Source: Acidobacteriota bacterium
GTDB taxonomy: Bacteria; Acidobacteriota; Blastocatellia; Pyrinomonadales; Pyrinomonadaceae
Assembly: GCA_003222845.1 (NCBI GenBank)
Contig: QHXG01000244.1
Location: 1 to 34,000 of the forward strand
Length of the DNA stretch: 34,000 nucleotides
Reading direction: 5' to 3'
In this document: positions 12,714 through 30,046 of the stretch, one piece after another
Position numbering within the stretch: the first letter of the stretch is position 1
How the letters are laid out: the number at the start of each line of letters is the position of its first letter
Notes under the pieces: generated by a model
The model's input: the letters and a program-made list of their open reading frames with translations, nothing else
Database searches by the model: none
What the model was told of the DNA's origin: nothing
Translations under genes and position numbers: made by a program

Positions 12714-13574
12714 TCAATGGCTCATCGCGTAGATGATCACATTGATGGCGCTCTTATAAGCATGCAAGCCGTACTTCGCGGGATAGCGCGGGTCGTTGAT
12801 CCACTCCCACGCGTCACCCATATCGGTGTTGAAGGAGATGAAGCACACCAGCCGGCCATTCTCGTCCTCGACTCCCATACGATGCGGGACCGTGCCGCCT
12901 TTCTCTGAGGTCTGGCCGCGCAGGGCATTGAAAATATTCGGCACCTGCAGAGTTTCGTCGATGTCGAGATACGAATGAAAGATCGGATGCGAGAGCGGTA
13001 ATTCCTTGATCTGGCGATTGGGCCAGACCTTATGAAGCTGCGTCTCGAGATTGGCGATCTCATAGACGCCCCAGAAATCATCGAAGTACATGAAGCCGCC
13101 ACGCGCGACATATTCGCGCAAACGCGCGGCCTGTTCATCTGAGAGGTCGAGAAAGCCGGGCTCGACGAAGTAGATGATCGGATAGTCGAAGAGGCGATCG
13201 TCCATGATCGGAATTTGGTCAGGGCGCGCGGCGATCTTCAAATTCGTGCCGGCCCATTCGCGCAGACCTACGATTAAATTGTTGTCGGCTTCGGGATAGT
13301 CCGTCGCCCAACTATTTCGTCGTCGATAACCATAACCGTAATTCGGCGAGTCATAGATCGTGCGGATAAATGTAAACTCGCCGTAAGAAGGCCCGGTCGC
13401 TACGGGCCTCACCAAGGTAGGGCGCTGGCGGAAGCTGCGATAGTCATCAAAAGGGTTCTGCGCGAGCGTGGGAACCAGGAGCAGCAACAGCACGAGCATG
13501 CTGATGCCGAATCGTCGACCTTTTATGTGCGATCGGCGTCGCGATTTGTCATTTGACAATAAAGCGTTCGTCAT
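12714..13574 (-). CDS. Exported DUF4159-family protein
   Basis: The product is about 286 residues from the ATG at 13574 (MTNALLSNDK). The longer ORF start at 13613 is rejected because its first 13 codons lie largely in palindromic repeat sequence. A basic stretch (RRRSHIKGRR) followed by FGISMLVLLLLLVPTLAQ looks like a signal peptide or membrane anchor. YGEFTFIRTIYDSP, IIYFVEPGFLDLSDEQAARLREYVARGG, FMYFDDFWG and the NDPRYPAKYGL tail match DUF4159, a glutamine-amidotransferase-like fold probably without catalysis. It is the last gene of the MoxR/VWA series, about 235 nt after the DUF4175-like gene, with a repeat cluster between. DUF4159 commonly neighbours MoxR, DUF58 and VWA genes; its biochemical role is unknown. 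Confidence 0.85.
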   Translation of the reverse strand: MTNALLSNDKSRRRSHIKGRRFGISMLVLLLLLVPTLAQNPFDDYRSFRQRPTLVRPVATGPSYGEFTFIRTIYDSPNYGYGYRRRNSWATDYPEADNNLIVGLREWAGTNLKIAARPDQIPIMDDRLFDYPIIYFVEPGFLDLSDEQAARLREYVARGGFMYFDDFWGVYEIANLETQLHKVWPNRQIKELPLSHPIFHSYLDIDETLQVPNIFNALRGQTSEKGGTVPHRMGVEDENGRLVCFISFNTDMGDAWEWINDPRYPAKYGLHAYKSAINVIIYAMSH

Positions 13575-13588
13575 TTGTGGATTTCGTT

Positions 13589-13781
13589 CATCGCATAGCG
13601 ATGAGATGGGCACTAGCCGTGGGCTTTAGCCCACGGAGCGTTGTCGCATCGAATCGCCATCGCGTAGCGACGGTTGAAAATCATCCGTCGCAAGTCAATC
13701 GTCGCTACGCGACGACCCCGATCTGATCCACCTAACCGTGGGTTGAAACCCACGGCTAAAGTCATGCGGCGCTACGCGCCG
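13589..13781. repeat. Cluster of REP-like palindromes
   Basis: Successive perfect or near-perfect palindromes are CATCGC-ATA-GCGATG (13589-13603), CCGTGGGC-TTTA-GCCCACGG (13617-13636), CGCGTAGCGACG and GTCGCTACGCGACG inverted copies (about 13661 and 13701), CCGTGGG-TTGAAA-CCCACGG (13736-13755) and CGGCGC-TAC-GCGCCG (13767-13781). CCGTGGG-type and CGCTACGCG-type units alternate. The cluster fills the DUF4175/DUF4159 gap and supplies the false upstream start of the DUF4159 ORF. Confidence 0.85.
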
Positions 13782-13809: not shown

Positions 13810-16800
13810 TCACTGCTTCCGTCCACCTCCCGACAACCGCCGATAATATTCCTCAACTGCCTTGCGATAGCGTTCAGGCGCGGCGCCTTCATCATGCAAG
13901 CGTAGATTCGTCCGGCCCGCCTGATTCTGTGCCTGCCGGCTCAATTGCAATTCCAGTTGACGCAGTGGATCGATCACGCTGTCCTTAAGCTGAGCAGCCG
14001 TTTGAATGTCATGGCCGGTCCCGACCTCAGTCAGCCGCCGCAGTTGGTCGATGGCCCGATCGAGATAAGGACCACTGGTGCCGCCCAATTGTTGCCGCAG
14101 CTTTTGCGCATCGTTCAGTCGCTGGCGCAATTCGGAATTCAACTGGCGGTCATCCCAGCCGCCATATCCGCCGCCGCGGTCATAACTCCCACCTTGACGA
14201 CCATCTCCCGAATTCGATCCATTGTCAGAATTTCCCTGCTGGCCCTGTTGCCCACGCTGCCCGCCCTGCTGTTGTCCTGACTGTCCCTGCTGTCCCTGCT
14301 GTTGGCCCTGTTGCTGGCCACGTTGTTGACCTTGCGAGTTGCCATTACGTCTGGCCGCGTTTTCATCCAGGCGCCGGCGTAACGAATCAACGTTATCGGC
14401 GAGTTGTCGCGTTCGATCGAGCGCCTCTTCGGCGTTATTGCCCGATTGGCCCGCGCCTTGTTCCGCCGACTGCAAACGCTCGGAAAGATTGTTAAGGCTG
14501 CGCTCAACGGCGCGTTCGTTGGCCCGCGCGCCTTCGAGATTGTTGCCGTTCAGGGCCTGCTTGCCTTCGCGAATTCGCTCCGCGATCCGATCACGCGCCA
14601 TGCCTTCGGCCGCGTCATTCAATTGCCGCGCGGTCCGCTGCTGTCCGCCGCCCATCGCACGCGCAGACTGTTCGATGTCCTGCTGCAAGCCGCTCACCGC
14701 ATCAGCCAGAGCATCCTTGCGCTCGGCCAGTTGCTCGCGCGCTCGCTGCGAGTTCGCGTCCTGCCCACCACGGCGCGCAAGGTTCTCTACATCTTTGGCG
14801 ATTTCACGCTGCCGCGACGCCGCCTGCGCCGCACGTTGACGCAAGTCACTGATTTGCTTCTGACGACCCGAAGCGCCTGATTGTCCGCCGGACTGACCGT
14901 TCATTTGTTGCAGACGGGTCTGCGCTTCGCGCAAGCGATCGAGGGCGCGCTCGTTCTGCGCGATCGATTCGCTGGAATTCCCACGCGATGATGCCTGCGC
15001 CTTCTGCATCTGGTCGGCAGTTTGATTGAGCTGGCGGCTCAACTCCTGCATCTGCGCGTCGCGACGTTCGCGCGAAAGCCGTTCAAGTTCGCGTGCGGCA
15101 CGACGCGTCTCATCAATTAACTCCTGCTGTTGCCTTTGGTTCCCGCCGCTGGATCCGCTTTGATTACGCGGGCCCTGCAGGCGTCGTCGTTGCTCCTCAA
15201 GGGCTTGCTCCTGACGACGCGCCAACTCTTCAAGCCGGCGCTCGGCTTCAGACTTCTGTTGTTGTGCTTGCTGCCGCTGCTGCCGCTGGACTGTCTCGTA
15301 CTGGTTCTTCATCTTATCGAGTTCCAGCTCGAACAAGCCGGCCAGTTCCTGCTGCTGGCGCTGGCTACTTTGGCCACCACCGCCATTTGCATTCTGATTA
15401 CCAAACGCGACCTGTACCTGACGGAAGATTGCATCAGCCGCCAAAAGCTTTTGCAGCGCCCGTTGTTCGGGCGGCAGTGCGTCGCGGCCAGACTCGTTTC
15501 GCAGCGGCGGCGGCGCGCCTTTCATTTCTTCGGCGGCCTGTTTCAGATCGCTGGCCATCTCAGCCATTTCCTTCTGGCCTTCTAATTCGTCGGGCAGCCG
15601 CCGTCCCATCCGATCCAGAAACTCGAGGGTGTCGGTCCGCAGCTTCTCCTGGCCAGCGGCGACCGCCTCGTATCCGTCTTTGCGCTCTTGCGGTGTGTAC
15701 TTATCGCTTTCGCGAATCAACTTATGCGTCGCCGCGATCAAATCTTTCTGCCTTCGCGAGAGCGCGTTCTGATCTTGATCGCCTTGCTGCCCGGCACCAC
15801 CGCCGCCTTGCTGCTGCGATTGGCGATATTCCATCTCAAACGGTTTCACTTCGATGAAGTAAATGTCGCTGGTCGTTTCGCTGTTGGCATCGCGCGCTTT
15901 CGCGTAATAGGAAATGAAATCGCCGGGCTTCAAATTAAATTCTTCGAGAAAGAAAGTGTGGGTCGCGGTCAACGTACGGGCAGATTCCCGCGTCAATTCC
16001 TGAAGATTCACCTTTTTTTCGTCGCCGCCGTTGACTGAAAAATACAAATCCATCCCGACCACGCCGTAATCGTCTTCAGCGCGCGCCTGGGTGAATACCT
16101 CCTCCAGATTGGTAGCCTTGCGGTCGCGCCCGGGTCGCTCGAACGAGACGGTAGGCGGTAGATCTTCGAGCACGCTCACGTCGTACTCGTTCGACCCGCG
16201 ATAAGTTTCGCCGTCGACGCTCACCAGTTCGATGTAATAGCTGGTCTCGCCGGAGACGGTCAGATCCCCGACCCAATCCTGACCGTTCGCGCGCATGTCG
16301 ATCTTCTTGCCGTTGGCCAGCACGATGCGCGCGGCGCGGACTTTGCCAGACAGCCGCGCAGTGATGGTCGCAACGGTGCCTTTCAGCGCCGCGATGTCAC
16401 CGCCATCTTCGGTGGTCTTGGAAGGCAGGTGAGAAAAGCTCGGAAAGTTCAGCGTCACGTCGAGTTGCTTGACGTAGGGCAAATCGACGACCGTGAGTTT
16501 GTAAGTATCTGAGCGAACTCCGTTGCTCTCGACGAAGTACTCAATGGAATCTTGAATATTGAATATCGAATATCGATAGTCTGTCTTAGCCTTGGCCGGC
16601 TCCATCGCCTGACCCTTCCAGTCATCCTTCGATCCGACAGGTCGCCAATAGATCGAAACAATCTGCGCATCGAAGTTAACCAACGTCGCGAGCACGTCCT
16701 GATCGGAACTCCTCGGTACGCGCGCGGACCCGGGCTTGACCCTGATGCTCATCGCGCTGGTTGAGGCGGCGAGCGTTTTCGGCATGACCAATTGCGCCAC

Positions 16801-17331
16801 GCCTTCTGAGATTTCGCGTGGGCCCCACCTCAGCACGCCCGCGAGGATTATTAAACTGGCAACCGTTGCGCCACCGTACAACAATAGACGCGATCGCCGA
16901 ATCACCTTGCCGAGACTCAACCTGCCGGCAAGCTGATTGGCGTCGGCTTCGAGCCGTTCCAGAATGGCTTTCGAGATATTAGGATCGCGTTCTGGTGATG
17001 AACATTCGATCGCCGTCACTAATCGATCTTCGGCAACCGGATGGTGTTCCTCAATCAATCGCGCGAGGCGCGTGTCGGTGATTCGTTTCCACAGCGGCCG
17101 GACCAGCGCGAGACACAGGGTCGTTAAAAAAGTTATGAGTGCCCCGAGACGCAGAAACATAAGTGCATTATCGTTGTGGCGATAACGATGCGCTGCCCAC
17201 CCCGTTAACAGCAGGATAGCTGCGCCGGCAGCCAAAACGATCGCCAGACCGCGCAGAGCCATGAGCAGGCGGCGGCGCGCACGCAAGCGACTCAGCAGAT
17301 TTCCAAGGTTGTTTCGGTCGGGATAAATCAT
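13810..17331 (-). CDS. DUF4175-like membrane protein with Q-rich coiled coil
   Basis: 1173 residues. The N-terminus has two membrane helices (about 24-46 and 58-78) and a third near 150-170 (LLLYGGATVASLIILAGVL). A beta-rich extracytoplasmic part with Ig-like stretches follows (VTLNFPSFSH, GTVATITARLSGKV, DDYGVVGMDLYFSVNGG, FISYYAKARDAN). From about residue 510 the chain becomes a very long Gln/Arg/Glu-rich coiled coil (QRQQRQQAQQQKSEAERRLEEL, LRQRAAQAASRQREIA), interrupted near 1010-1060 by a Gly/Gln/Ser low-complexity tract. The C-terminus (RYRKAVEEYYRRLSGGGRKQ) is typical of DUF4175-type proteins in MoxR clusters. A structural or scaffolding envelope role is inferred. ATG at 17331 has only a distant GGGAG. 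It follows the BatA-like gene by 97 nt. Confidence 0.82.
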   Translation of the reverse strand: MIYPDRNNLGNLLSRLRARRRLLMALRGLAIVLAAGAAILLLTGWAAHRYRHNDNALMFLRLGALITFLTTLCLALVRPLWKRITDTRLARLIEEHHPVAEDRLVTAIECSSPERDPNISKAILERLEADANQLAGRLSLGKVIRRSRLLLYGGATVASLIILAGVLRWGPREISEGVAQLVMPKTLAASTSAMSIRVKPGSARVPRSSDQDVLATLVNFDAQIVSIYWRPVGSKDDWKGQAMEPAKAKTDYRYSIFNIQDSIEYFVESNGVRSDTYKLTVVDLPYVKQLDVTLNFPSFSHLPSKTTEDGGDIAALKGTVATITARLSGKVRAARIVLANGKKIDMRANGQDWVGDLTVSGETSYYIELVSVDGETYRGSNEYDVSVLEDLPPTVSFERPGRDRKATNLEEVFTQARAEDDYGVVGMDLYFSVNGGDEKKVNLQELTRESARTLTATHTFFLEEFNLKPGDFISYYAKARDANSETTSDIYFIEVKPFEMEYRQSQQQGGGGAGQQGDQDQNALSRRQKDLIAATHKLIRESDKYTPQERKDGYEAVAAGQEKLRTDTLEFLDRMGRRLPDELEGQKEMAEMASDLKQAAEEMKGAPPPLRNESGRDALPPEQRALQKLLAADAIFRQVQVAFGNQNANGGGGQSSQRQQQELAGLFELELDKMKNQYETVQRQQRQQAQQQKSEAERRLEELARRQEQALEEQRRRLQGPRNQSGSSGGNQRQQQELIDETRRAARELERLSRERRDAQMQELSRQLNQTADQMQKAQASSRGNSSESIAQNERALDRLREAQTRLQQMNGQSGGQSGASGRQKQISDLRQRAAQAASRQREIAKDVENLARRGGQDANSQRAREQLAERKDALADAVSGLQQDIEQSARAMGGGQQRTARQLNDAAEGMARDRIAERIREGKQALNGNNLEGARANERAVERSLNNLSERLQSAEQGAGQSGNNAEEALDRTRQLADNVDSLRRRLDENAARRNGNSQGQQRGQQQGQQQGQQGQSGQQQGGQRGQQGQQGNSDNGSNSGDGRQGGSYDRGGGYGGWDDRQLNSELRQRLNDAQKLRQQLGGTSGPYLDRAIDQLRRLTEVGTGHDIQTAAQLKDSVIDPLRQLELQLSRQAQNQAGRTNLRLHDEGAAPERYRKAVEEYYRRLSGGGRKQ
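14215..14340. repeat. Low-complexity tract coding for a Gly/Gln-rich segment
   Basis: Imperfect tandem CTGTTG/CTGTCC-type units, read on the minus strand as GGQQ/GQQG codons, encode RGQQQGQQQGQQGQSG and similar. Slipped-strand length change is plausible between strains and would stay in frame in 3-nt steps. Confidence 0.7.
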
Positions 17332-17428: not shown

Positions 17429-19477
17429 TCAGCCCACCATTTTCGCTACTTTTATTCGTTGGGCCAGCAATGACTCAGTAATCAGCAGCAGCAGCGCCAA
17501 AAACAATAAGGGCCACCAGACCTTTTGCCGATTCTCGATCTCTTCATTGGTGAAACTTCGGTTCGCTTCGCGTCCTTCGGCTTTTCCCGATCCGCCAGTC
17601 ACGCCGCTGATAAATGCGCCAAAATCAAGCTTCGTAAAGTCGCCTTCCGCGGCATTTAAATCCACCGCGGCGAAATCAGGCCGCACTTGATAGCGCAAAC
17701 GATAAAATCCCGGTTGCCGCCCGGTAACCAGCAAATCGCCCGCGGCCGTCAGACGGTTATCGGTCAACCGGGTGCCATCAGGAGAATCGACCGCGGGCGC
17801 ATCGCCTTTCGCATCTTTGGCGACTCGGAAGGTCTGGCCCAACAAGTACCAGGATCCCGCTTCGCGACTCCCAAGGTAACGAATCATCTGATGCACGAGC
17901 GGCAAGTAAACCGGCGTCAACGGTAAATCGTTCCAACTCGTTCCGAGTGACGACGTGAACAATAAGACTCGCCCCTTGCCGGTACTGGCTTCGATCAGAG
18001 CGGGACTGCCGTCTTCATATCGCGCCAGCACACTCGCGTTAGGTTTTGGTTGGGCCCGCAGATGTCCGAACACGCGGGCCGCAGCGAGCCGTCCGCTATC
18101 CCGAAAGACTTCAAAAATCGGATGATCAAATTTGATATCGGTAATCGCCAGGCCCTCGCCGGCTTTGGTTTGCACGGCCTCGCCAAAAGTTGCAGGCAAA
18201 ATGTCAGGCAAAGATTGATTGAGACTATTCGCATCCGTATGTGGTCCCGTAGAAACGATCAACTGTCCGCCATTCTCAACAAACTTCTTCAGGCTGGCTG
18301 CCAACGCCGACGACAAAGGACCCGAGTCGTTAAGAATTACCAGAGCATTTTCAGCGACCCCGGAAGGATCGGCGGCGCCGGCGGTCTTTACGGTGAAGGC
18401 GAAAGGCAGCGCGTCGTTTAGGTTTAGCGCGCTTTGCAGATAAAAGCTGTCGCTGCGACCGCGCGCGGCGCTTTCGACAATCAGGGCTTTGGCCGGGGCT
18501 TCGCGGCGAATCGTGAAATAGAATTTGTTGTCCGGAGTGAAGTCGTTCGACGCGACTTCGATGACGCACCGATTGGCGCCTTCAGTCAGATTGAATCCGG
18601 TAAACTCAACGACTTTCGTCTCGCGCGAATTCAGGCTTACCTCGTGCTTTTCGACCGTCTGATCGTTGATTTGCAGATCAACCGCCAGCCGATCGCGCGG
18701 CGTATCGCTGTAATTACTGATCTGAACCGACAGGTTCTCGAGATATTTTTGACCGAAGACGACACCGTGCGCATCGACGCTGGACACTGCGACATTGGCG
18801 GGCGGATTGTTTCCGCCTACATCAAACGTCTGGAGCTGAATGTCGCTGCTGAGTTTGAAAGAGGCATTGCCCTGGTTCCAACCACTGGCCTGAAAATCTG
18901 AAATCAGCGCCACTCGTTTCCTGCCGTCGATTTTCAACTCGCCCAGGAGCGATTCAGCGCCTCGCAATGCCTGTGCGTAATCCGTGGCTTCCCAACCCGC
19001 CGTTAAACTTTTCAAAATCGATCGCAGTTGAGTCTTGTCGGCAGTAAAGCGACTGGCCACTTCGTAGCGATTTCCAAAGGTCAGCAGTGCCAGACGCTCG
19101 CCGCCCGGCGCCTCATCGATGATTGACCCAGCGCGTTGCACAGCACTGGCGAACATCTGTTCGCGGCGCATGCTTAGAGAGGAATCGATCAGAATGACAG
19201 TGCCTCCCGCTGCGCCACTATCTTTCGCTGCGCTGCGGCGCGTGAAAAATGGACGAGTGAACGCGATCACGATGAGCAGAATCGCCAGGCAACGCAGGAT
19301 AAGCAGCAGCAGGTTGCGAAAGGTGCGGCGACGAATCGTGCGTTGCGGCACCTGGCGCACAAAGGTCAGCGCCGGAAACTCGATTCTGCGCGCGCGCGTG
19401 CGCCGCACGAGATGCACCAGTATCGGCGCGCCGATCGCGGCGATACCCAACCAGAAAAGTGGATTAAGGAACCACAT
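17429..19477 (-). CDS. BatA-like membrane protein with VWA domain
   Basis: About 682 residues. The N-terminus WFLNPLFWLGIAAIGAPILVHLVRR matches the BatA/aerotolerance-regulator N-terminal domain, with a second helix at about 57-78 (LLLLILRCLAILLIVIAF). A von Willebrand A domain follows, with MIDAS DSSLSM at about 100-105 (a DxSxS metal site) and RVALISDFQASGWNQ. The middle is a beta-rich region (VSLNSRETKVVEFTGFNL) and a GATase-like segment (GGQLIVSTGPHTDANSL). The C-terminus has a last helix, WWPLLFLALLLLITESLLA. The ORF track begins at TTG 19483; ATG 19477 two codons later is preferred. The 5' end abuts a heptamer repeat, which leaves no clear Shine-Dalgarno. It is part of the MoxR series, directly after the DUF58 gene. 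Confidence 0.87.
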   Translation of the reverse strand: MWFLNPLFWLGIAAIGAPILVHLVRRTRARRIEFPALTFVRQVPQRTIRRRTFRNLLLLILRCLAILLIVIAFTRPFFTRRSAAKDSGAAGGTVILIDSSLSMRREQMFASAVQRAGSIIDEAPGGERLALLTFGNRYEVASRFTADKTQLRSILKSLTAGWEATDYAQALRGAESLLGELKIDGRKRVALISDFQASGWNQGNASFKLSSDIQLQTFDVGGNNPPANVAVSSVDAHGVVFGQKYLENLSVQISNYSDTPRDRLAVDLQINDQTVEKHEVSLNSRETKVVEFTGFNLTEGANRCVIEVASNDFTPDNKFYFTIRREAPAKALIVESAARGRSDSFYLQSALNLNDALPFAFTVKTAGAADPSGVAENALVILNDSGPLSSALAASLKKFVENGGQLIVSTGPHTDANSLNQSLPDILPATFGEAVQTKAGEGLAITDIKFDHPIFEVFRDSGRLAAARVFGHLRAQPKPNASVLARYEDGSPALIEASTGKGRVLLFTSSLGTSWNDLPLTPVYLPLVHQMIRYLGSREAGSWYLLGQTFRVAKDAKGDAPAVDSPDGTRLTDNRLTAAGDLLVTGRQPGFYRLRYQVRPDFAAVDLNAAEGDFTKLDFGAFISGVTGGSGKAEGREANRSFTNEEIENRQKVWWPLLFLALLLLITESLLAQRIKVAKMVG

Positions 19478-19486
19478 GATCAATTT

Positions 19487-19604
19487 GTCAGTTGTCAGTT
19501 GTCAGTGGTCAGTTGTTATTTTGTTGGAGTTTTAGATTTTAGATAAGCTCTAAATTCTAAGCCCTAAGCTCTAATCAACTGACAACTGACCACTGACAAC
19601 TGAC
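19487..19604. repeat. Heptamer-periodic inverted repeat element
   Basis: Left side: four tandem 7-mers GTCAGTT, GTCAGTT, GTCAGTG, GTCAGTT (19487-19514). Right side: AACTGAC, AACTGAC, CACTGAC, AACTGAC (19577-19604), an inverted copy shifted by one unit. This gives perfect 23-bp inverted arms at 19494-19516 and 19582-19604. The interior is also in 7-mers: TTTTAGA twice (19530-19543), and CTAAATT, CTAAGCC, CTAAGCT, CTAATCA (19550-19576). The element fills the DUF58/BatA gap and its last base is the first base of the DUF58 stop triplet. Confidence 0.9.
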
Positions 19605-20563
19605 TACTTCTCCACTCGCCGTGACAGGAACGAAAACAGCGCGTAATCCAAAGGCTGATCGGTCGTGATCAATTCATAATCGACCCGGTTGGCGGCCGCG
19701 CAGCGGCGCATCTCGTCAAGGTGCTCGCGCAGGCGCGCGCGATAACCATTCATCACCACGTCCGGCAACACCGGCATCTGCTCATTGGTTTCTGAATCCT
19801 CCAGCAGCAGGATGGGGTCGTCAAAGTCGAACTCGATTTCGTTGTTGTCGAGCACGTGAAAAGCCATCAGGTCGTGTCCGCGAAAACGCAAATGCTGAAA
19901 GGCCGATTGCAGACGCTCAGATTGATCGTAGAAATCCGAGACGAGCACGACGATACCGCGGCGCGTGAGTATCTCGGCCAATTCGTGCAGCGATTCAGCC
20001 AGCCGCGTCTCGCCGCCGGCTTCAAGCAAGGAAAGTTGGCCAAAGATCGTGCGCAGGTGGCCGGTCCGGCTGCGCGCCGGCACATGGGTGTGAACATGCT
20101 CGTCAAACGCGACGAGCCCAACCGCATCCTGCTGGCGATTCAAAAGGTAAGCCAGGGACGCGGCCAGAAATTTCGCATAGGTGAGTTTCGAAACTCTGCC
20201 AGCTTGCGCATATCGCATCGACGCGCTGGTGTCGATCAGCAGATGACACTGCGTGTTCGTGTCCGCGCGATATTTCTTGATGAAGTAGCGATCCGTGCGC
20301 GCGAGCAACCGCCAGTCGAGATAACGCAAATCATCGCCGGGATTGTATTGACGATATTCGGTGAATTCGGTCGAGAAGCCTGTAAAGGTAGAGCGATGCA
20401 GCCCGGACATGAATCCCTCGACCACGGCGCGCGCCAGGAGTTCGAGGGAGCCAATGCGTGCGAGCACCTCTGGATCGAGAAAGCGTGCGGGTCCTGGAGA
20501 GGAAACAGGCGCAGACCTAGCGGATGAAATGGTCGGTGCCGGTGTTTTCTTTCTCCAAAGCAT
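19604..20563 (-). CDS. DUF58 domain protein
   Basis: About 319 residues from ATG 20563 (MLWRKKTPAP). The ORF-track start at 20587 is a GTG inside a palindromic repeat arm; neither start has a visible Shine-Dalgarno. The family core is clear: FSTEFTEYRQYNPGDDLRY with LDWRLLARTDRYFIKKY, then a VWA-like fold with LLIDTSASM (MIDAS DTSAS), AVGLVAFDEHV, GGETRLAESLHEL and GIVVLVSDFYD. No membrane helix is present, so it is probably cytoplasmic or membrane-associated. DUF58 proteins almost always sit directly after MoxR, as here (271 nt, the gap being filled by repeats), and are thought to be partners or clients of the MoxR ATPase. Confidence 0.9.
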   Translation of the reverse strand: MLWRKKTPAPTISSARSAPVSSPGPARFLDPEVLARIGSLELLARAVVEGFMSGLHRSTFTGFSTEFTEYRQYNPGDDLRYLDWRLLARTDRYFIKKYRADTNTQCHLLIDTSASMRYAQAGRVSKLTYAKFLAASLAYLLNRQQDAVGLVAFDEHVHTHVPARSRTGHLRTIFGQLSLLEAGGETRLAESLHELAEILTRRGIVVLVSDFYDQSERLQSAFQHLRFRGHDLMAFHVLDNNEIEFDFDDPILLLEDSETNEQMPVLPDVVMNGYRARLREHLDEMRRCAAANRVDYELITTDQPLDYALFSFLSRRVEK

Positions 20564-20582
20564 GTTCGTAAAAATCGATGCC

Positions 20583-20749
20583 TTCACTCCGTCAGGAGTG
20601 AAATGTTTATAGAGGGTCGACTATCTCCAACTGTCTCAAGCTCCTTTAGGAGCGAAATCAATCCCGCACTGAAATATATTTCGCTCCTGACGGAGCTGGA
20701 ATTCTTTCGGGTACGTTATCTATAAACATTTCACGCCTAACGGCGTGAA
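20583..20749. repeat. Nested inverted palindrome element
   Basis: Four palindromes are arranged symmetrically: TTCACTCC-GTCA-GGAGTGAA (20583-20602), GCTCC-TTTA-GGAGC (20640-20653), GCTCC-TGAC-GGAGC (20683-20696) and TTCACGCC-TAAC-GGCGTGAA (20730-20749). The outer pair carry GTGAAATGTTTATAG on one side and its exact reverse complement CTATAAACATTTCAC on the other; the inner pair carry GCGAAAT and ATTTCGC. The whole is therefore one composite inverted repeat, typical of a REPIN or MITE. It lies between the MoxR and DUF58 genes. Confidence 0.88.
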
Positions 20750-20858: not shown

Positions 20859-21878
20859 TCACAAGCCGCTCTTCGGCTCGGGCACTGCTTCGATCAATTG
20901 CTTAATGACTTGATCAGAATCGACCTTTTCCGCCTCAGCCTGAAAATTCAAAAGAACGCGATGCCGCAGCACCGCTGGTGCGACAGCGCGCACGTCTTCG
21001 CAGGAAACGTTGTAGCGGCCGCGCAGGATCGCGCGTGCTTTGCCGCCCAGGATCAAGAACTGCGACGCGCGCAACGATGCGCCCCACGTCACCCATTGGT
21101 TAACGAAGTCGGGCGCCGACGGCGTGGCAGGACGGCTGGCGCTGACCAGCCGCACCGCGTAACGCGCCACGGTGTCGGCGGCCGGCACTTGCTTAACCAG
21201 CTTCTGAAACGCGACGATCTCATCCGCCGACATGACCGTTTTGAAATCCAGGTCCTGAGGTGAAGTCGTCTGCTTGACCACCGAGACTTCCTCTTCTTCC
21301 GGCAAGTAGCCAATCTTCACATTGAACATGAACCGATCGAGCTGCGCTTCGGGCAACGGATAAGTCCCTTCCATCTCGATTGGATTCTGGGTCGCCAGCA
21401 CAAAGAAAGGCCGCGGCAGTTCATAACTCATTCCCTGCACTGTGACCCGACCCTCCTGCATGGCTTCCAGCAGCGCGGCTTGCGTTTTGGGCGGCGTGCG
21501 GTTGATTTCGTCGGCCAGCACAATGTTCGCGAACAGCGGCCCGCGAATGAATTGCATGGCGCGATGACCGGTCGCGCGATCCTCCTCGATGATCTCAGTG
21601 CCGGTAATGTCCGCCGGCATCAAGTCGGGCGTGAACTGAATCCGTTTGAACGAGAGGTCGAGCACACTCGCAACAGTTCGCACCAGCAAGGTCTTGGCGA
21701 GACCGGGAACGCCGGTGATGATTGAATGACCGCCGACGAACAACGACAGCAGAACCTGTTCCACCACGTCGTCCTGGCCGATGATTGCTTTCCGGATCTC
21801 TCGCAGCAGCGATTCGCGCGCGGAACTTAGCTTGTCCAACAACTGTTCGTCGTTAATTACGGATTCTTCAATCGCCAT
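20859..21878 (-). CDS. MoxR-family AAA+ ATPase
   Basis: 339-residue cytoplasmic AAA+ ATPase of the MoxR/RavA-like group. Visible motifs are Walker A GVPGLAKT (56-63), FTPDLMPADITGTEI, Walker B IVLADEINRTPPKTQAALLEAMQE (about 119-142) and the sensor region FVLATQNPIEMEGTYPLPEAQLDRFMF. The lid domain contains the TWGASLRASQFLI and KARAILRGRYNVSCEDV blocks conserved in MoxR. ATG 21878 has TTGAGGACG just upstream, the best Shine-Dalgarno in this cluster. MoxR ATPases act with VWA-domain partners as chaperones for assembling or activating envelope and metalloenzyme complexes. DUF58 and VWA genes follow immediately, supporting that role here. Target unknown. Confidence 0.95.
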   Translation of the reverse strand: MAIEESVINDEQLLDKLSSARESLLREIRKAIIGQDDVVEQVLLSLFVGGHSIITGVPGLAKTLLVRTVASVLDLSFKRIQFTPDLMPADITGTEIIEEDRATGHRAMQFIRGPLFANIVLADEINRTPPKTQAALLEAMQEGRVTVQGMSYELPRPFFVLATQNPIEMEGTYPLPEAQLDRFMFNVKIGYLPEEEEVSVVKQTTSPQDLDFKTVMSADEIVAFQKLVKQVPAADTVARYAVRLVSASRPATPSAPDFVNQWVTWGASLRASQFLILGGKARAILRGRYNVSCEDVRAVAPAVLRHRVLLNFQAEAEKVDSDQVIKQLIEAVPEPKSGL

Positions 21879-22083: not shown

Positions 22084-24783
22084 TTACTGTCCCACGATCT
22101 TCAACAACAACTCTTGTGCTTTCTCGTAACTCGGCGCGGCTTCCAACGCGCGCAACACCGCGTGCTTTGCTTCAGGCTGTTTTCCCAAAAGGTGATACGC
22201 GGTCGCCAGATTGTAATTCGCTTCCGCCACGTTTGGTGGATCCAAAGCCAGCGTCACCTGAAACTCTGATAATGCCTGCGCATATTGTTTCTCTTCGAGG
22301 CTGAGCCGTCCGGCTTCAGTGTGCGCAGCATACTCGAAAGGATTGACGTAGAAGCTGAGACGCAAAGCCTCGAGCGCGCCCGCTCGATCGCCCATCTTTG
22401 CTCGTAGACTCGCCGAGGCCTTGAGCGTCGGCAGGCTGTTCTGATCGTACTTGACGTGCGCAGCTATCGCTTCGGCAGCTTGCTTGTAGTCACCTTTCTT
22501 TTCGAAAATCTCCGCCAGGGCGTCGTATGCATTGCCCTCGCCGGTATAATACGGAAACAGTTCGATGGCGCGCCTGAAATGCATCACCGCATTGTCGATA
22601 TCGTCTTTGGCGCGAAACAGCTGCCCGGCTCGCAGGTGCAGAGCGAAAGTGTCTTCGGTCGCCAGCATCTTCACCACGTCATCCTTCGTCAACGAAGCGG
22701 CAACATTGAGTTCGGTCTTTAGCGCCTCCTGCAGCGGATGTGTCTTCGCTGCGACGTAGTCCTTGAAAGCGCGGTCAAAATCGCTCTCAGTTAACTTTAG
22801 TACTCGCTCGAGAACGTCCGCTGTCTGTGCCTTATCACGATAAAAGGCCAGCATGTGCAGGATTGCGTCGAAGCCAAAACGCTCGGCGATAAACTCGCAA
22901 ACTTGCGAAGCCTGAAAGTAGGCGACGGTGAGATCTTCGGGACCGTGCGGACGTGAGAACGCACCGTCAAGATCGGCGATCTTATGCCATCGGCCGGAAG
23001 CGAAGGAACTCAGCAGCATGGGATTCCAGTCGTCGCCCCAGCCGGGGCGCGCTCTTCGCTCTTCGTAAACCGACAAGCCTTCAGAGAACCAACGCGGAAT
23101 CCGGTAGTCGGTCATCTGCAAAGTGATCACGTGCGTGTATTCATGCCAAAGCGTACTGCCCCAGTTGAATTCGCCGGTGGGCCGCGCAGATGGCGAATCT
23201 GCGGCAATGACCTGGCCAAAGCAAACTCCGAGAGCGCCGAGACCTGGTAGCCCCAACGTGCGCACCGCAAAGTCTTCATGGTTGGGAAACAGCTCTATTG
23301 TGATCGGTCCCTTGGGTGTGAAATGGTACTTCGCAATCAATTTGCTCGCCGCCTCATCGAGCAAGTCAGCGGCGTAAGGCGTAACTACGTCGCTTTCCTT
23401 TGCGTCGACCTTGATCAAAAATGCTTCATGTTTCGTCGCGCGATAATCTTTCATCGCGTCCAGCAGGTCGAGCGTATTCTTGGCCCAGAGGTTGTACGGA
23501 TCGCCCTGGAATGATTTCTCGACTTCGGCGCGCCCCTCATTCATTTGGCCCATACGCAACAGAGCCATGCCCAAATCCAAGTGAGCTGACCATAGGCGCG
23601 GAGAGATTTCGATTGCTCTCTTGGCGAAGGCCGCGGCCTCAGCAGTGCGACGCGTTATAGTCGCGTAATGAGACAGCACTCTGAAGATCAGGCCATAACG
23701 CCGATTGATCGCGAGGGTCGCCGTGACCTCAGGCTCAAAGTCCCGGTCCTGCAGGTAGAGCATCGCCGCCTTTACGGCATGCGCATCGAGCGAGCGCGGA
23801 TTGATCTTGAAAGCTCTTTCAAGGTCAGCCGTAGCTTCGGCGTAATCGCGCTCTTCTAATTCCAAGCCGGCTTTGAACGTTAGCGCCCCAACCAGGTTGG
23901 GATTGATCGCCAACGCGCGCGTAAGCGCCGCGAATGTTTCTTCCCCGCCGTCGATTCGTTTGTTCTGCGCCAGGCCCACCAGGCCGCGCGCGCTGTTGGG
24001 ATTGATTTGCAACGCATCCTGAAAGTACTGAGCAGCGTCGCCGTAGCTGTATTTTTCATTGAAGAGTTCACCGGCGCCCAGTTGCGCATCGATGTAATTA
24101 GCATCGGCGGCGATCGCATCACGATAGACGTCGTTCGCATCGTGAAATCTTTCGAGATGGACCAACGCTCGCGCTACACTTGTCAGTTCAGCAGCGCCGT
24201 CCGGCTGCTTCTCCTTATAGTAAGCAACCAGCGCTTCGAAGATTGGATGAGCACGGTCCTCCTGACCGGTGAGTTCAAGAATTTCGGCGCGGCGCAGATC
24301 GCTTGCGAGTTTGTCAGCCGGAGCTTTGCCGGCGTCCGTCGCAGCATGTTCGAACTCACTGATTGCCTCGGCGTAACGACCCGTAGAGGCAAACACTTCG
24401 GCCAGTTGATGGCGCACGCCGGCAGCACTCGGATTCTTGATAAGGTACTTTTTCGAAGCGGCCTCGGCTTCCGCGTAACGCCCGGTTTCCAGGTAAGCGC
24501 GGAGCAGACCGGTTTCAGCTTCGGTGTCCCCAGCATTCGTGCCTAGTCGCGAGGTTAAAAGTCTGATGGCGTTTTCATATTCACCCTTTTTCAGTTCTGC
24601 GGCGCCAGGAAGTTCCACAGCTTGGGATTGAGCGAGCATTCGCGGCGACGACACCCAAACCGAGATGAACGAGACCAGAAGGAGAAGACCGCACGCCCAA
24701 CAACGACCGCCGGCAATTTCGCCGCCAAAAGTTTTTCGGTTCGCAGCGCCGTCAGGCGCGAAATATTTGTAGTTACGATTCAC
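22084..24783 (-). CDS. Exported TPR protein with gluzincin (peptidase MA-like) domain
   Basis: 899 residues. A hydrophobic segment CGLLLLVSFISVWVSS (about 31-46) ending MLAQSQA resembles a signal peptide with an unusually long N-region. TPR repeats fill about 58-440. A zinc metallopeptidase domain follows, with LWHEYTH (HExxH at 547-551) and a downstream glutamate in RWFSEGLSVYEE (about Glu568), the gluzincin arrangement seen in peptidase MA-like domains. More TPRs fill the C-terminus (about 700-899). The start is GTG 24783, and the first 17 or so codons coincide with a dispersed palindromic repeat; no other start upstream of the hydrophobic segment is visible. It follows the caspase-like gene by 41 nt, so the two are very likely cotranscribed. 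Substrate unknown. Confidence 0.87.
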   Translation of the reverse strand: MNRNYKYFAPDGAANRKTFGGEIAGGRCWACGLLLLVSFISVWVSSPRMLAQSQAVELPGAAELKKGEYENAIRLLTSRLGTNAGDTEAETGLLRAYLETGRYAEAEAASKKYLIKNPSAAGVRHQLAEVFASTGRYAEAISEFEHAATDAGKAPADKLASDLRRAEILELTGQEDRAHPIFEALVAYYKEKQPDGAAELTSVARALVHLERFHDANDVYRDAIAADANYIDAQLGAGELFNEKYSYGDAAQYFQDALQINPNSARGLVGLAQNKRIDGGEETFAALTRALAINPNLVGALTFKAGLELEERDYAEATADLERAFKINPRSLDAHAVKAAMLYLQDRDFEPEVTATLAINRRYGLIFRVLSHYATITRRTAEAAAFAKRAIEISPRLWSAHLDLGMALLRMGQMNEGRAEVEKSFQGDPYNLWAKNTLDLLDAMKDYRATKHEAFLIKVDAKESDVVTPYAADLLDEAASKLIAKYHFTPKGPITIELFPNHEDFAVRTLGLPGLGALGVCFGQVIAADSPSARPTGEFNWGSTLWHEYTHVITLQMTDYRIPRWFSEGLSVYEERRARPGWGDDWNPMLLSSFASGRWHKIADLDGAFSRPHGPEDLTVAYFQASQVCEFIAERFGFDAILHMLAFYRDKAQTADVLERVLKLTESDFDRAFKDYVAAKTHPLQEALKTELNVAASLTKDDVVKMLATEDTFALHLRAGQLFRAKDDIDNAVMHFRRAIELFPYYTGEGNAYDALAEIFEKKGDYKQAAEAIAAHVKYDQNSLPTLKASASLRAKMGDRAGALEALRLSFYVNPFEYAAHTEAGRLSLEEKQYAQALSEFQVTLALDPPNVAEANYNLATAYHLLGKQPEAKHAVLRALEAAPSYEKAQELLLKIVGQ
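24737..24780. repeat. Palindromic repeat overlapping the TPR-peptidase 5' end
   Basis: On the minus strand ACAAATATTTCGCGCC-TGAC-GGCGCTGCGAA parallels the element at 20721-20749 (TATAAACATTTCACGCC-TAAC-GGCGTGAA) and the one at 1672-1697. It begins only about three codons after the GTG start, so repeat sequence encodes roughly residues 5-17 of the peptidase. Confidence 0.7.
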
Positions 24784-24824: not shown

Positions 24825-25988
24825 CTACTCCGTCGCTGGTACCGCTCCTTGTTTGATCGCGCGATTCACCTTTGCCAGTTCAATGAAAAGTCTTTCGAGT
24901 TCTGCTTCATACGCCGCTTCCGGCATACTGCTCTTACGCCCAATCAATTGCGCAATCTCGCCTTCGAGGCGCGTCCGATCGCGCCTGAGCTTGGCTATGG
25001 CCACGTTGGCTGCCGCCTGCTCCACGCTCAACGAATCGATGTACGTCGCGCGCGCCATTAACCCGTCCCCGCCTTCCATCTTTTGATGGCCAACGCCGTC
25101 ACCATTGTCTTCCAGCAAAGCATGTTCAGTCGCGAGCCGGCCCGCGCGCGTGTAGAACTCGGCGGTGAGCCGATTGGCATAATTGAATGCCTCGAGCACA
25201 GAGATGTGACCGTCCTGATCCGCATCGGCGTCGCTGGCTGACAGTGCCGCGACAAAGTATTCGGCGAATCGGGTCGCGTTGCTTTCCTGACCGTTGCGTG
25301 TCGCAGTCACGATGATTCGTCCCTTCGCCGCGAGTGGTTTGATGAATTCACCGCTGGCGCTGGCCATGTTGAAAACCACGATTCGCTGCGTGGGCAGAGC
25401 GGAGAGCAGGGCGTTGTATTCGGCCGCGGAAAGATCCGGCCCTACCAGATTGAATTTTGCTTCCTTGTCGAAAGACCCATGGCCAATCAGAAAAACAAAG
25501 AGCAAACTGTCAGCGTTGAGTTCAGTCCGCAGCGACGCGAATACCTTCTTAACTTCTTCCGCCGTGGCCGGTGCCTCGCCGGCATCGACAGGTTTTTCCG
25601 TTAACAGCTTCACGTGATTCCTTGCAAAACCAAAGCGCCCCCACAACGTGCCCCGCAACGCCGCGGTCCATTGCTGGAATTGTTTTGCATAAGCCGGCTC
25701 ACCGCTGGCGCCGGCGATGATGACGGCGTACTTGCTACGATCGACGGCGGCGGATTTTGATTGAGGCGTAGATGCGCCGTTTTGATTTGATTGCGCGAAG
25801 ACGCCAAACGCGCTCGTGCCAAACAATGTGAGAAAGGCAAGCAACGACCCGAGCCAGCGAAGCTGGCGAAAGCATAAAGCCTGGGGCGTGAGCCCCAGGT
25901 AACTCCACCGGTCACGATAATTCAGCCCGCGTAGCGGGCGACAGCCGTTCACCGTCGTTGCAATCTTGTTTAGTGTAATCCCCGGCAT
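24825..25988 (-). CDS. Secreted caspase/legumain-like protein with EF-hand loop
   Basis: 387 residues by the ORF-track start. A hydrophobic segment WLGSLLAFLTLFGTSAFGVFAQ (about 45-66) is the signal peptide. The domain resembles the caspase-hemoglobinase fold (clan CD): YAVIIAGASGE, SLLFVFLIGHGS with the catalytic-type His170, then RIVVFNMASASGEF where legumain-type enzymes have EACESGS. The expected nucleophile Cys is Ser210 here. VTATRNGQESNATRFAEYF follows, then a canonical EF-hand loop DADQDGHISVLE (255-266), then a C-terminal coiled coil (VAIAKLRRDRTRLEGEIAQL). Residues 1-48 are largely encoded by dispersed repeat DNA; the true start may be ATG 25988 or a TTG near 25844. It could be an inactive scaffold or a Ser-variant hydrolase. 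It lies 41 nt before the TPR-peptidase gene. Confidence 0.8.
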   Translation of the reverse strand: MPGITLNKIATTVNGCRPLRGLNYRDRWSYLGLTPQALCFRQLRWLGSLLAFLTLFGTSAFGVFAQSNQNGASTPQSKSAAVDRSKYAVIIAGASGEPAYAKQFQQWTAALRGTLWGRFGFARNHVKLLTEKPVDAGEAPATAEEVKKVFASLRTELNADSLLFVFLIGHGSFDKEAKFNLVGPDLSAAEYNALLSALPTQRIVVFNMASASGEFIKPLAAKGRIIVTATRNGQESNATRFAEYFVAALSASDADADQDGHISVLEAFNYANRLTAEFYTRAGRLATEHALLEDNGDGVGHQKMEGGDGLMARATYIDSLSVEQAAANVAIAKLRRDRTRLEGEIAQLIGRKSSMPEAAYEAELERLFIELAKVNRAIKQGAVPATE

Positions 25989-26115
25989 TCTCAGAAATTG
26001 TGTCCGTCGATCCGCTGTCGCCCGCTTCGCGGGCTCAATTCTCTCTTGCGATGGCTATCCTGGGGTTCCGCTTCGCTCCACCCCAGGCTCTATGCTGTCG
26101 CCCGCTTCGCGGGCT
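25860..26115. repeat. Composite inverted repeat covering the caspase-like 5' end
   Basis: Palindromes are CCTGGGGC-GTGA-GCCCCAGG (25880-25899), GCCCGC-GTA-GCGGGC (25925-25939), a 22-bp exact direct repeat at 26014-26035 and 26094-26115 (containing GTCGCCCGCTTCGCGGGC), and CCTGGGGT...ACCCCAGG (26059-26087). The segment 25860-25899 is an imperfect inverted copy of 26059-26115: both contain GCGAAGC, AGCATA and AGCCTGGGG in the same order. The inner GCCCGC unit is also an inverted copy of the 22-mer with one mismatch. The element spans the signal-peptide N-region of the caspase-like gene and the gap upstream. Confidence 0.87.
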
Positions 26116-26140: not shown

Positions 26141-28609
26141 TCACGCTAATCCTTCACGCTTCCGTAAGAACCATTCGGCGCTCAACAAGCCAACGATCAA
26201 AAAGAAATTTATCGGCATGTCCCACAGATCTTTGGTGATACGTTCTGAATAAGGCGTCTTGCGATACGTCAAATCATCCAGCAAAGAGTGCAGGTCGCTG
26301 AGTTGGTAGTACTTCCCGCCGGTTTCCGCGGCGATGCGCTTTAACAAACCAGGGTTCTGCTCGGCACCGTAAAACTCGCGATTGAGATCACTTACCAGCA
26401 TATTCGATTTTGCGCTGACTTGTCCGAGACTGCTGCTGTTTGCGATGAGTTCGATGCCGTGCTGACCCAATTCGTCGGCTTTGAATTCGCCGGTGTAGAC
26501 GTTCGCATCGTTGATGCTCGTGAACTTTAAAGGCACATCCAGGGTCGCGCCCGAAGGCTTCGTGATGCGGGCGGTTGCGCGCGCGTCGTTGACCGGGTTG
26601 AAGTGTTTGTCACGAATGTCCGCGACCACGCTCACGGTGTCATCCATCACATAAACATCCTGTTGAGCGCCAACTTCAATCTGCTTCGGCGTCCCACTCA
26701 CCAAATAGCGCAGCATCTGCCGCCAGAACGTTTCGTGTGCGTTACTCTTCGAATCCATCCGCATCCGCCAGCGCCAGGTATCGGTCGCCGTAAGTGCTAA
26801 CGTCTGGCCACGTCCATACTTTTGTTGGCCCAGTAACGGCACCGCCGGCGATGATGCACCCACGCGCTTTGCTTCCAGCAGCAACGTCGCGCCGGGTTTC
26901 ACGGTCTTCAAAATTTCGGAAATAGAAACTGGCGGTAGATCATTCCAGGTCTTTTGACTGACTGATCGATCTTCATTCAGACGCGTGATCGGATGCTCCT
27001 GGCCCGCGCCGGTAAGTTGCGCTTTGTAAACCGGAGCGTACGATTCAGCGTCATCCACCTTGTGCCCCTCGAGCGCGAGCGGCAGCAAATCATCAATCAG
27101 CGTGCCCTTATATTTTCCACCGTCAAAAGAGAAGCGTCCGCCGAGCGCTAACAGTCCACCACCCCGGCGCGCGACGAAAGCTTCGATATTGCGGAGTTGT
27201 TCGGTCGTAAAGAAACTCGCTTCGACGCTGCCGAGAACCAAGCCGTCGTAAGCAAAGAGTTCCTCCTCGGTTTTGGGAAATCCGGCGACCAGTTCCTGTT
27301 CGCCACCAATTCCCTGCCGGTAGAATTTATTTTCACCCGTGCGCTGAAGCGATACGATGGTGATGTTCTTCTCAGTGAGACTCAGCGATTCGCGAATCTT
27401 GCCCAGCTCCCAACGCGGTTCGCCCTCAACATGCAGGATTCGCATAGGCCCTTCAATCACTTCGACGAGCGCGTCCTGTCGGTTGTTGTCGATCGTGACT
27501 TCGCCATCGAGCGGCGTGATTTCAACTGTGTAGCGATGGAAGCCGGGCGTGGAAGGCACAATTTCAAGCTTGACTGCCTGCGTATCACTGCCGCGCAAAT
27601 TGAACACTTCAGTCTTGATCGCGCGTCCATCTTCTCGCACGTTCAGCAAAACTTTCGTCGCGCCGTAGCCGCTGAGGCTGACAAACGCATCAATGTTAGC
27701 TCTCGATCCGACCAACACTCGGCGCGGTACATTTATTCGACTCAACTCCGCGTCCAGAGGACGCGACGTGTCACCTACGCCTATGGTAAACACCGGCACA
27801 TCGCGCGCGCGCAATTCTCTCAGCGTGGCGTCAAGGTCACGCGATACATTCGCAGCACCATCTGTGGCAAGGATCACCGCTGAAAGCGGCATCCCCGAGG
27901 ATCGTTTCGCGATTTCATCGAGTGCGCCGGTGATGTCGGTGGTGCGGCCTTCACCATAGAGAGTGTTCCCATCTGCGACGCTGGTCACCTCGCCCGAGAA
28001 GCCATAGAGGTTGGTCTTAAACTTGTCTTCCAGGTCCGTCAGAAAAGAATTCTTGCCGGCGCTGGGCGGCGCGAGCAGCATTTGTTTTGCATACGCGAGT
28101 CGCGTCAATCGTCCGGGCGTGTCCTGAAGTTTCATGCTGAGTGAGTCGTCAATCGCCAACGCTACATAACTGCTACGTGGCACGACCGACGAGACGACAA
28201 CGACGGGCTTCAAGAGCATGAACACAACCAGCCCGATCAGTGCCGTGCGCAGAGCAGCGAGAATGACAGTGGTGTGCCTCTTTATGCGGAATCGTGGCCG
28301 AATATAGACGAAATGGATAAAGCCGCCGAGCAGGATGGTGAGGAGAATGATCAGCCACCATCGCGGACGCAAATCGAACCCGAACCGGCCATTACTGAAA
28401 ACGGCCCGCTCATGTCCGAACAGCAACCGCGCGAGAGTTCCCATGAAAAGCATCAGCATTATAGTTCCAGCCAAAGCGCCACTAAGGTTAAAGTTTGTTA
28501 ACTCTAAGACGCATCCGAAGCGCCATTCAGTTACCTCAAAGATCGGCCTTTGAATCCAAAAGCCTTTTTGTAGGTTCCGCGATCTATTAAGACCGGCACA
28601 CGGCGACAT
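26141..28609 (-). CDS. Membrane VWA protein with glutamine-amidotransferase-like domain
   Basis: 822 residues by the ORF-track start. Membrane helices lie at about 48-64, 83-100 and 115-133, and a last one sits near the C-terminus (INFFLIVGLLSAEWFLRKRE). The VWA domain has MIDAS AIDDSLSM (Asp154, Ser156, Ser158) and LSAVILATDGAANVSRD. A beta-rich middle (STPGFHRYTVEITPLDGEVTIDNN) leads to a class I GATase-like segment: MRILHVEGEPRWELGKIR, FAYDGLVLGSV, NIEAFVARRGGGLLALGG. No catalytic Cys is apparent, as is usual in these cluster proteins. The first 50 residues show no family features, so ATG 28459 (MLMLFMG, with GGA upstream) is a serious alternative start. It is the first gene of the MoxR series, directly downstream of tRNA-Ser. 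Confidence 0.87.
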   Translation of the reverse strand: MSPCAGLNRSRNLQKGFWIQRPIFEVTEWRFGCVLELTNFNLSGALAGTIMLMLFMGTLARLLFGHERAVFSNGRFGFDLRPRWWLIILLTILLGGFIHFVYIRPRFRIKRHTTVILAALRTALIGLVVFMLLKPVVVVSSVVPRSSYVALAIDDSLSMKLQDTPGRLTRLAYAKQMLLAPPSAGKNSFLTDLEDKFKTNLYGFSGEVTSVADGNTLYGEGRTTDITGALDEIAKRSSGMPLSAVILATDGAANVSRDLDATLRELRARDVPVFTIGVGDTSRPLDAELSRINVPRRVLVGSRANIDAFVSLSGYGATKVLLNVREDGRAIKTEVFNLRGSDTQAVKLEIVPSTPGFHRYTVEITPLDGEVTIDNNRQDALVEVIEGPMRILHVEGEPRWELGKIRESLSLTEKNITIVSLQRTGENKFYRQGIGGEQELVAGFPKTEEELFAYDGLVLGSVEASFFTTEQLRNIEAFVARRGGGLLALGGRFSFDGGKYKGTLIDDLLPLALEGHKVDDAESYAPVYKAQLTGAGQEHPITRLNEDRSVSQKTWNDLPPVSISEILKTVKPGATLLLEAKRVGASSPAVPLLGQQKYGRGQTLALTATDTWRWRMRMDSKSNAHETFWRQMLRYLVSGTPKQIEVGAQQDVYVMDDTVSVVADIRDKHFNPVNDARATARITKPSGATLDVPLKFTSINDANVYTGEFKADELGQHGIELIANSSSLGQVSAKSNMLVSDLNREFYGAEQNPGLLKRIAAETGGKYYQLSDLHSLLDDLTYRKTPYSERITKDLWDMPINFFLIVGLLSAEWFLRKREGLA

Positions 28610-28888: not shown

Positions 28889-30046
28889 ATGAACAATGCC
28901 TTCACGCCTAACGCTGGTTTTCAGCCCCCTCAGTATATTCGGCCTTCCGGACATCAAAGCGCTCTCAAGATAATTCTGGCAGTCTTTGCCGTGATGTTCG
29001 CGGCGCTGTTGGGCCTGGTCGTGCTGTTGCTGATTGGCGCTGAAACCGGTCCAGTGGAACTGATTATCGGTTTGATCTGCGCTACCTTGCCGGTGCCTAT
29101 CTATGTGATGCTGATGCTTTGGATCGATCGGTATGAAGCTGAGCCGCTTTGGATGCTGGCCACGGCTTTCTTCTGGGGCGCGCTGGTCGCCGTGTTTGTC
29201 GCCTTTATCTTCAATACGAGCTTGTCAATCATTGCGGCGGTCGCCACGCACAATGCGCAAGTCGGCGAAGCCTTTGGCGCGGTGATCTCGGCGCCGATTG
29301 TCGAGGAAAGCTCCAAGGCGCTTATTCTGCTCATCCTCTTTCTGTGGAAGAAAGATGAATTCGACGGCATCGTCGACGGTATCGTTTATGCGGGGATGGT
29401 CGGACTTGGTTTTGCGATGACGGAGAACGTGCTTTATTACGGCCGGGCCGTGCAAGGCGGACTGGAAGGCTTAACCTTCATCTTTATTCTGCGCGGAATG
29501 GCTGCGCCGTTTTCTCATCCGCTGTTCACCAGCATGACCGGAATAGGATTAGGCTGGTCCCGACAATCCAACAATGGTTTTGTGAAGGTAGTAGCTCCGG
29601 TGGTTGGCTTCATGCTGGCGATCTTAATGCACGCGACCTGGAACGGCTCGGCGGTTTTCGGTGGCGGCGTCGGATTCTTCGTGGCTTACTTTGTGATCAT
29701 GGGGCCGGCATTCATCATCACTCTGATGGTCATTTTCTTTTCGCTGCGCCGCGAAGGCCGCATCGTGCAACAGTTTCTCTATCCTGACTATCAGCGGGGA
29801 TTCTTTGATCCAGATGAGTACGAAAGGCTTTGCACGATTCATGGCCGCATGGGCATGTCATGGAACGTTTTAATGAACCAGGGCTTTTCCATGTGGCGCA
29901 CCCGGATGCGCTGTAATCAGCTTGCCAGCGAACTGGCGTTTCATCGCAGCCGTGTCGCGCGCGGACTCGGGCGCGATCCGCAGCAGGCGCAACAGCGCGA
30001 GAATGAATATTTATCGATGCTGCATGAGCTGCGGCGTACGGTCTGA
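28889..30046 (+). CDS. PrsW-family membrane metalloprotease
   Basis: 385-residue polytopic inner-membrane protein with about eight hydrophobic segments. PrsW (M82) proteases cleave membrane substrates such as anti-sigma factors; relatives resemble the CAAX-protease (Abi) group. Visible family motifs are VPIYVMLMLWIDRYEAEP (about 69-86), APIVEESSKA with the Glu-Glu pair at 139-140, VYAGMVGLGFAMTENVLYY (Glu179-Asn180), PFSHPLFTSMTGIGLG and ILMHATWN. The paired glutamates and the two histidines are the expected metal ligands, so the enzyme looks active. A soluble basic tail follows (about 300-385, RCNQLASELAFHRSRVARGL). No close Shine-Dalgarno is seen. It is monocistronic; the downstream MBL gene has its own upstream region. 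The substrate is unknown and no sigma/anti-sigma gene lies nearby. Confidence 0.9.
   Translation: MNNAFTPNAGFQPPQYIRPSGHQSALKIILAVFAVMFAALLGLVVLLLIGAETGPVELIIGLICATLPVPIYVMLMLWIDRYEAEPLWMLATAFFWGALVAVFVAFIFNTSLSIIAAVATHNAQVGEAFGAVISAPIVEESSKALILLILFLWKKDEFDGIVDGIVYAGMVGLGFAMTENVLYYGRAVQGGLEGLTFIFILRGMAAPFSHPLFTSMTGIGLGWSRQSNNGFVKVVAPVVGFMLAILMHATWNGSAVFGGGVGFFVAYFVIMGPAFIITLMVIFFSLRREGRIVQQFLYPDYQRGFFDPDEYERLCTIHGRMGMSWNVLMNQGFSMWRTRMRCNQLASELAFHRSRVARGLGRDPQQAQQRENEYLSMLHELRRTV

Follow-up and report, generated by a model that had tools for sequence, protein, structure and literature searches.

Gene cluster and features of the pseudo-caspase

The window, i.e., the whole stretch of 34,000 nucleotides analysed here, encodes on its minus strand a gene cluster in the order VWA/GATase1-like membrane protein, pseudo-caspase, TPR-HExxH protein, MoxR, DUF58, BatA, DUF4175 and DUF4159 (Table 1). 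A PrsW-family intramembrane protease (28889-30046; PF13367, E=2e-52) is encoded upstream of the cluster in divergent orientation. The pseudo-caspase contains the motifs LIGHGS with His170, FNMASASGEF (Met208-Ala209-Ser210-Ala211-Ser212-Gly213) and the EF-hand loop DADQDGHISVLE. All three had been reported in the earlier sequence-only reading; they are present in the ORF, and they are not a product of chance, since among 163 homologues His170 (161/162), Ser212 (160/163) and the first and last EF-hand positions, Asp1 (160/163) and Glu12 (158/163), are kept.

Table 1. Coordinates of the cluster genes and of the pseudo-caspase features within the window.
Feature	Position	Strand	Remarks
VWA (MIDAS DDSLS)/GATase1-like membrane protein	26141..28609	(-)	immediately upstream of pseudo-caspase
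Pseudo-caspase ORF	24825..25988	(-)	387 aa; ATG at 25988 is an uncertain start
Signal-peptide-like segment RQLRWLGSLLAFLTLFGTSAFGVFAQ, about residues 41-66	25791..25868	(-)	hydropathy and sequence reading
His170 (LIGHGS), position of the catalytic-dyad His	25479..25481	(-)	kept in 161/162 homologues
Ser210, nucleophile position, Cys in active relatives	25359..25361	(-)	profile and homologue alignments
Ser212, Ser of the caspase C-x-S-G motif, near-invariant	25353..25355	(-)	160/163 homologues
EF-hand loop DADQDGHISVLE, residues 255-266	25191..25226	(-)	predicted between two helices
Second conserved acidic/Gly motif EDNGDGVGH, residues 293-301	25086..25112	(-)	Asp294 157/159; upstream Glu288 158/158
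TPR protein with Peptidase_MA_2 domain, intact HExxH (HEYTH)	22084..24783	(-)	41 nt downstream of pseudo-caspase
MoxR AAA+ ATPase	20859..21878	(-)	PF07726 E=1.8e-62
DUF58/VWA protein	19604..20587	(-)	PF01882 E=3e-44; MIDAS DTSAS
BatA-type VWA membrane protein	17429..19483	(-)	PF07584 and PF13519; MIDAS DSSLS
DUF4175 membrane protein	13810..17331	(-)	PF13779 E=5e-8
DUF4159 protein	12714..13613	(-)	PF13709 E=4e-41

A hydropathy peak at residues 46-64 lies ahead of the conserved domain, and the pseudo-caspase is predicted to be secreted, with the signal peptide leading to the periplasm or the outer face. The sole cysteines of the ORF, Cys16 and Cys39, both lie upstream of the signal-peptide core, so that the predicted mature protein is devoid of Cys. 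The ORF shares its 5' end with a palindromic DNA repeat (25845-26115) that is dispersed over the genome in about 20 copies. Residues 1 to about 48 are therefore encoded by the repeat, which makes the true start uncertain. The repeat may have inserted at the start of the gene.

The genome yields 45 matches to TIGR03436, a VWA model specific to Acidobacteria, about 32 of which exceed the cut-off that none of 14 control genomes passes, so an acidobacterial source is very probable. Homologues were collected from Planctomycetota (about 300 genomes) and from the phylum of the window, probably Acidobacteriota (up to 400 genomes), resulting in 163 distinct proteins distributed across both phyla. Among the viral contigs scanned no relative was found, and among the genome contigs scanned L024 was the sole one.

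Fold, nucleophile position and EF-hand loop

The fold was proposed to be that of clan CD (caspase/legumain), and this assignment is well supported by profile comparisons and by modelling. The window protein reaches 22.7-22.8 bits against the Pfam C13 family PF01650, the gathering cut-off of which is 22.8, and PF01650 matches were obtained for 27 of 84 diverse family members, with one relative at 30.8 bits. For PF00656 (Peptidase C14) there was no match in the window protein and a weak one in a single member of the 84. The family profile was found to align with plant metacaspase-4 (E=5e-6) over a stretch that stops at the catalytic His-Gly, and hhalign of this profile to 33 caspase domains of the same class gave E=2e-16, a value that applies to a one-to-one profile comparison and not to a database search. 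The AlphaFold model was built on an alignment of two rows and is of low confidence (pLDDT 58, pTM 0.52); its top Foldseek matches in the PDB are metacaspases, legumains, GPI8 and MALT1, with probabilities up to 1.00. A profile built from planctomycete-type members alone found no PDB relative, and a C13 search of the window's phylum at E<=1e-10 recovered neither bona fide C13 peptidases nor the controls. The catalytic His that follows the third core strand (HG) is present in 161 of 162 homologues.

Read by eye, the nucleophile motif leaves its register ambiguous: in most planctomycete members the sequence is NC-A-S-A-S-G, and its Cys stands two positions ahead of Ser210. The alignments place Ser210 at the nucleophile position, as had been suggested from the window protein itself. 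The hhalign comparison with the 33 caspases is gapless here and pairs Ser210 with the Cys of DACxSG. The planctomycete homologue L257 (NPCHSGGF) aligns over 48 residues without gaps and places its Cys opposite Ser210 with a BLOSUM62 score of 92, the next register scoring 11; for a second planctomycete homologue, L250 (SACGSDGF), the gapless alignment likewise places Cys at 210 (58 versus 18). A third homologue, L258 (NSCYSGGF), has its Cys at 210 in the multiple alignment; a simple gapless scan missed the motif register, and its assignment is the least secure of the three. Met208 as nucleophile position, for which the Cys of the planctomycete motif NCASASGPF had made it a candidate, was ruled out by the caspase profile alignment and by L257 and L250; its variable column lies two residues ahead of the nucleophile. 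The nucleophilic Cys of an active clan CD peptidase is thus absent from the window protein, which has Ser at position 210 and no Cys in its mature part. Some members (L074, L086, L093, L100, L119, L122, L170 and L178) carry a Cys one residue past the nucleophile position (e.g., NATSCSGG), possibly a shifted nucleophile or a coincidence.

The EF-hand loop of the earlier reading, which follows the active-site strand, was borne out by its conservation across the homologues. The window protein has the ligands at positions 1, 3, 5, 9 and 12 together with Gly6 and predicted flanking helices, which in the weak model (pLDDT 58) span residues 158-172 and 186-203 in model numbering. Position 1 (Asp255) is kept in 160/163 and the Glu at position 12 in 158/163 homologues, and 154/163 show the canonical ligand pattern at all tested positions, Gly6 aside. 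A comparable loop, ADLDGDRQILLQEW, occupies the same place in at least one of the genome's caspases, so that the EF-hand loop was probably inherited from the caspase lineage. From this pattern the pseudo-caspase is predicted to bind Ca2+, and the conserved motif EDNGDGVGH may constitute a second Ca2+ site.

Variation at residue 210 and the fate of the catalytic site

Residue 210 is Ser in 124 of the 163 homologues, Ala in ten, Glu in nine, Pro in eight, Gly in four, Asn in three, Cys in three and Thr in two. The three Cys-bearing proteins are all divergent planctomycete homologues. In the 36 proteins with Ala, Glu, Pro, Gly, Asn or Thr the remainder of the protein and the operon are intact. 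Ser is the commonest residue at a position for which conservation of Ser or Cys had been in question, although it is not conserved family-wide. A quick maximum-likelihood tree requires no fewer than 23 switches between Ser and another residue, 12 of which are forced by strongly supported branches. With the root placed on two Cys-bearing outgroup rows, parsimony reconstructs Cys as the earliest state, followed by Ser at the base of all other members; this root is provisional, as the outgroup rows are long-branched. L257 (7684-9048) possesses the canonical HC dyad (CHSG), the EF-hand loop and an additional N-terminal domain and is a candidate for an active relative. It apparently lies outside a MoxR-type cluster within the DNA fetched, while L250 lies inside one.

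The nine members with Glu at 210 (L054, L055, L065, L067, L069-L071, L073 and L080) are related, and all of them show the cluster arrangement in which the pseudo-caspase is last. Two of these genomes (L054/L079; L067/L098) hold a second copy of the cluster in which Ser is kept.

The most conserved columns of the family are Glu288 (158/158), His170 (161/162), Asp185 (160/162) and Ser212 (160/163), while residues 208-211 vary. This pattern would be in line with a redeployed site, in which His170, Ser212, Asp185 and Glu288 would form a new ligand-binding, metal-binding or catalytic site that does not depend on residue 210 and is coupled to the Ca2+ loop. However, the conserved residues may be structural, and the model is too poor for distances, so that we regard this explanation as rather unlikely, if the strongest of the alternatives.

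Less likely still is a Ser-variant hydrolase, in which His170 would activate Ser210 to yield a serine peptidase or esterase in those lineages that keep the Ser. The near-invariant His170 and the prevalence of Ser at 210 are in accordance with this, and within the class to which the window belongs every homologue has Ser210 (27/27; 31 of 225 core columns are invariant there), which leaves room for a local function of Ser210 in this class. However, the residues replacing Ser in the 36 homologues arose repeatedly in operons of one type, Ser210 comes only 64th when the 292 columns are ordered by conservation, and clan CD enzymes normally lose their activity when the Cys is changed to Ser. Given the variability of residue 210 with its repeated Ser/non-Ser changes, a Ser enzyme is unlikely across the family, and the suggestion of a Ser-variant enzyme is not supported as a family-wide reading.

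Proposed role in the envelope and relation to known systems

Neighbourhood counts are based on 94 loci, each of at least 9 kb, from the phylum of the window. The VWA/GATase1-like gene was found in 89 of them, in two cluster arrangements, and in nearly all it adjoins the pseudo-caspase on the same strand; BatA was present in 80, DUF58 in 79 and MoxR in 62 loci, the last count being limited by the length of DNA fetched. Planctomycetota show the order DUF58-BatA-DUF4175-VWA/GATase1-pseudo-caspase, and most planctomycete loci contain the VWA/GATase1-like gene. In a set of 60 relatives, pseudo-caspase and VWA/GATase1-like gene occurred together in 17 of 18 carrier genomes versus none of 42 others (Fisher p=5e-14), and in the single exception the locus ends at a contig edge. 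The six genomes of the same genus (G001-G006) had neither the pseudo-caspase nor its partner above the thresholds used, indicating that the pair is patchy at genus level, with probable gain or loss as a unit. The pairing with MoxR suggested at the outset thus holds as a maintained link to the MoxR/VWA cluster, but the closest gene partner is not MoxR itself: this place falls to the VWA/GATase1-like membrane protein, an obligate-looking partner of the pseudo-caspase.

That the pseudo-caspase instead acts as effector or regulator of an anti-invader system of the MoxR-vWA ternary type (Kaur et al., 2020) is very unlikely: MoxR, VWA and caspase-like proteins do occur together here, inactive caspases are reported from such systems (PMC7159879) and the protein has weak similarity to NCBIfam EACC1-type caspases, but PADLOC gave no match for eight cluster proteins, the conserved partners are BatA, DUF58, DUF4175 and DUF4159 proteins, and the cluster resembles a stable envelope operon, not a variable-effector locus. 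No VMAP, iSTAND, FtsH or beta-propeller third component was found among the Pfam matches of the cluster, in which MoxR and VWA are present, and the cluster MoxR matches bpMoxR weakly relative to AAA_3.

The protein is probably an exported EF-hand pseudo-protease of clan CD that belongs to an envelope MoxR/VWA complex as a subunit without catalytic activity; the loss of the catalytic Cys and the single membrane-protein gene that almost always adjoins it both point to a non-cutting part of such a machine. More tentatively, though still as a serious possibility, the family may be an exported Ca2+-binding pseudo-caspase family of two phyla that forms an obligate subunit of an envelope VWA/GATase1-like/MoxR machine, its clan CD fold, with His and without nucleophile, being repurposed as a calcium-gated binding module. 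The pseudo-caspase would descend from a His-Cys peptidase and, having lost the Cys, would not cut substrates. Its signal peptide would deliver it to the periplasm or outer face, where Ca2+ bound by the EF-hand could stabilise the former substrate cleft or switch its conformation, and it would serve the VWA/GATase1-like protein as a subunit, either structural or peptide-binding. The MoxR ATPase, together with its VWA partners, would be required to assemble or mature this putative envelope complex. Should the system involve proteolysis, the TPR-HExxH protein, whose gene lies 41 nt downstream, would be a better candidate than the pseudo-caspase; with its HEYTH motif intact, it is a plausible active protease of the cluster. 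A point against the non-catalytic reading is the near-invariant His170, which would be unusual if the site does nothing.

The closest Pfam family is C13 (legumain/haemoglobinase, PF01650), with which the family has in common the fold, the His-Gly motif and a CxSG-type region; it differs in that nearly all members lack the nucleophilic Cys and in the addition of the EF-hand loop and a C-terminal helical hairpin. To the C14 caspases, orthocaspases and metacaspases (PF00656) it is linked by profile homology to the 33 same-class caspases and by the metacaspases as best PDB matches; unlike the pseudo-caspase family, the 33 caspases keep both His and Cys. We know of no caspase-like subunit among the bat genes of the described Bat/MoxR clusters. 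The Bat (Bacteroides aerotolerance)/MoxR clusters likewise combine MoxR with BatA-like VWA membrane proteins in a proposed periplasmic complex, and their function was described as elusive and possibly periplasmic (PMC3557215). The MoxR-vWA ternary systems also contain MoxR, VWA and often inactive caspase domains, in these conflict systems fused to VWA proteins (Kaur et al., 2020, PMC7159879), whereas here a separate protein, predicted to be exported, is encoded beside BatA-type membrane genes, and no third component was identified. Pseudo-orthocaspases with YS or YN pairs were reported to belong by 90% to Alphaproteobacteria and Cyanobacteria, and neither Acidobacteria nor Planctomycetes are named in the main text on them (PMC6426788). 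The YS proteins have Ser in place of the catalytic Cys and are presumed to be non-proteolytic, as here, but the present family keeps the His (HS, HA, HE, HP and others). The T. brucei MCA4, a pseudopeptidase according to a citation in PMC4357240, is likewise presumed to be non-proteolytic and also differs in that our family keeps the His. Of the planctomycete metacaspases in an earlier survey, only 64% had the dyad intact (PMC3501461). In the open-access literature no paper on the pseudo-caspase family or its operon was found.

Bacterial pseudo-caspases have so far come mostly from cyanobacteria and alphaproteobacteria; the family described here keeps its His, has one membrane partner and spans two phyla. 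Its divergent Cys-bearing relatives make the loss of catalysis traceable and testable, and the family offers a concrete handle on the MoxR/Bat envelope clusters.
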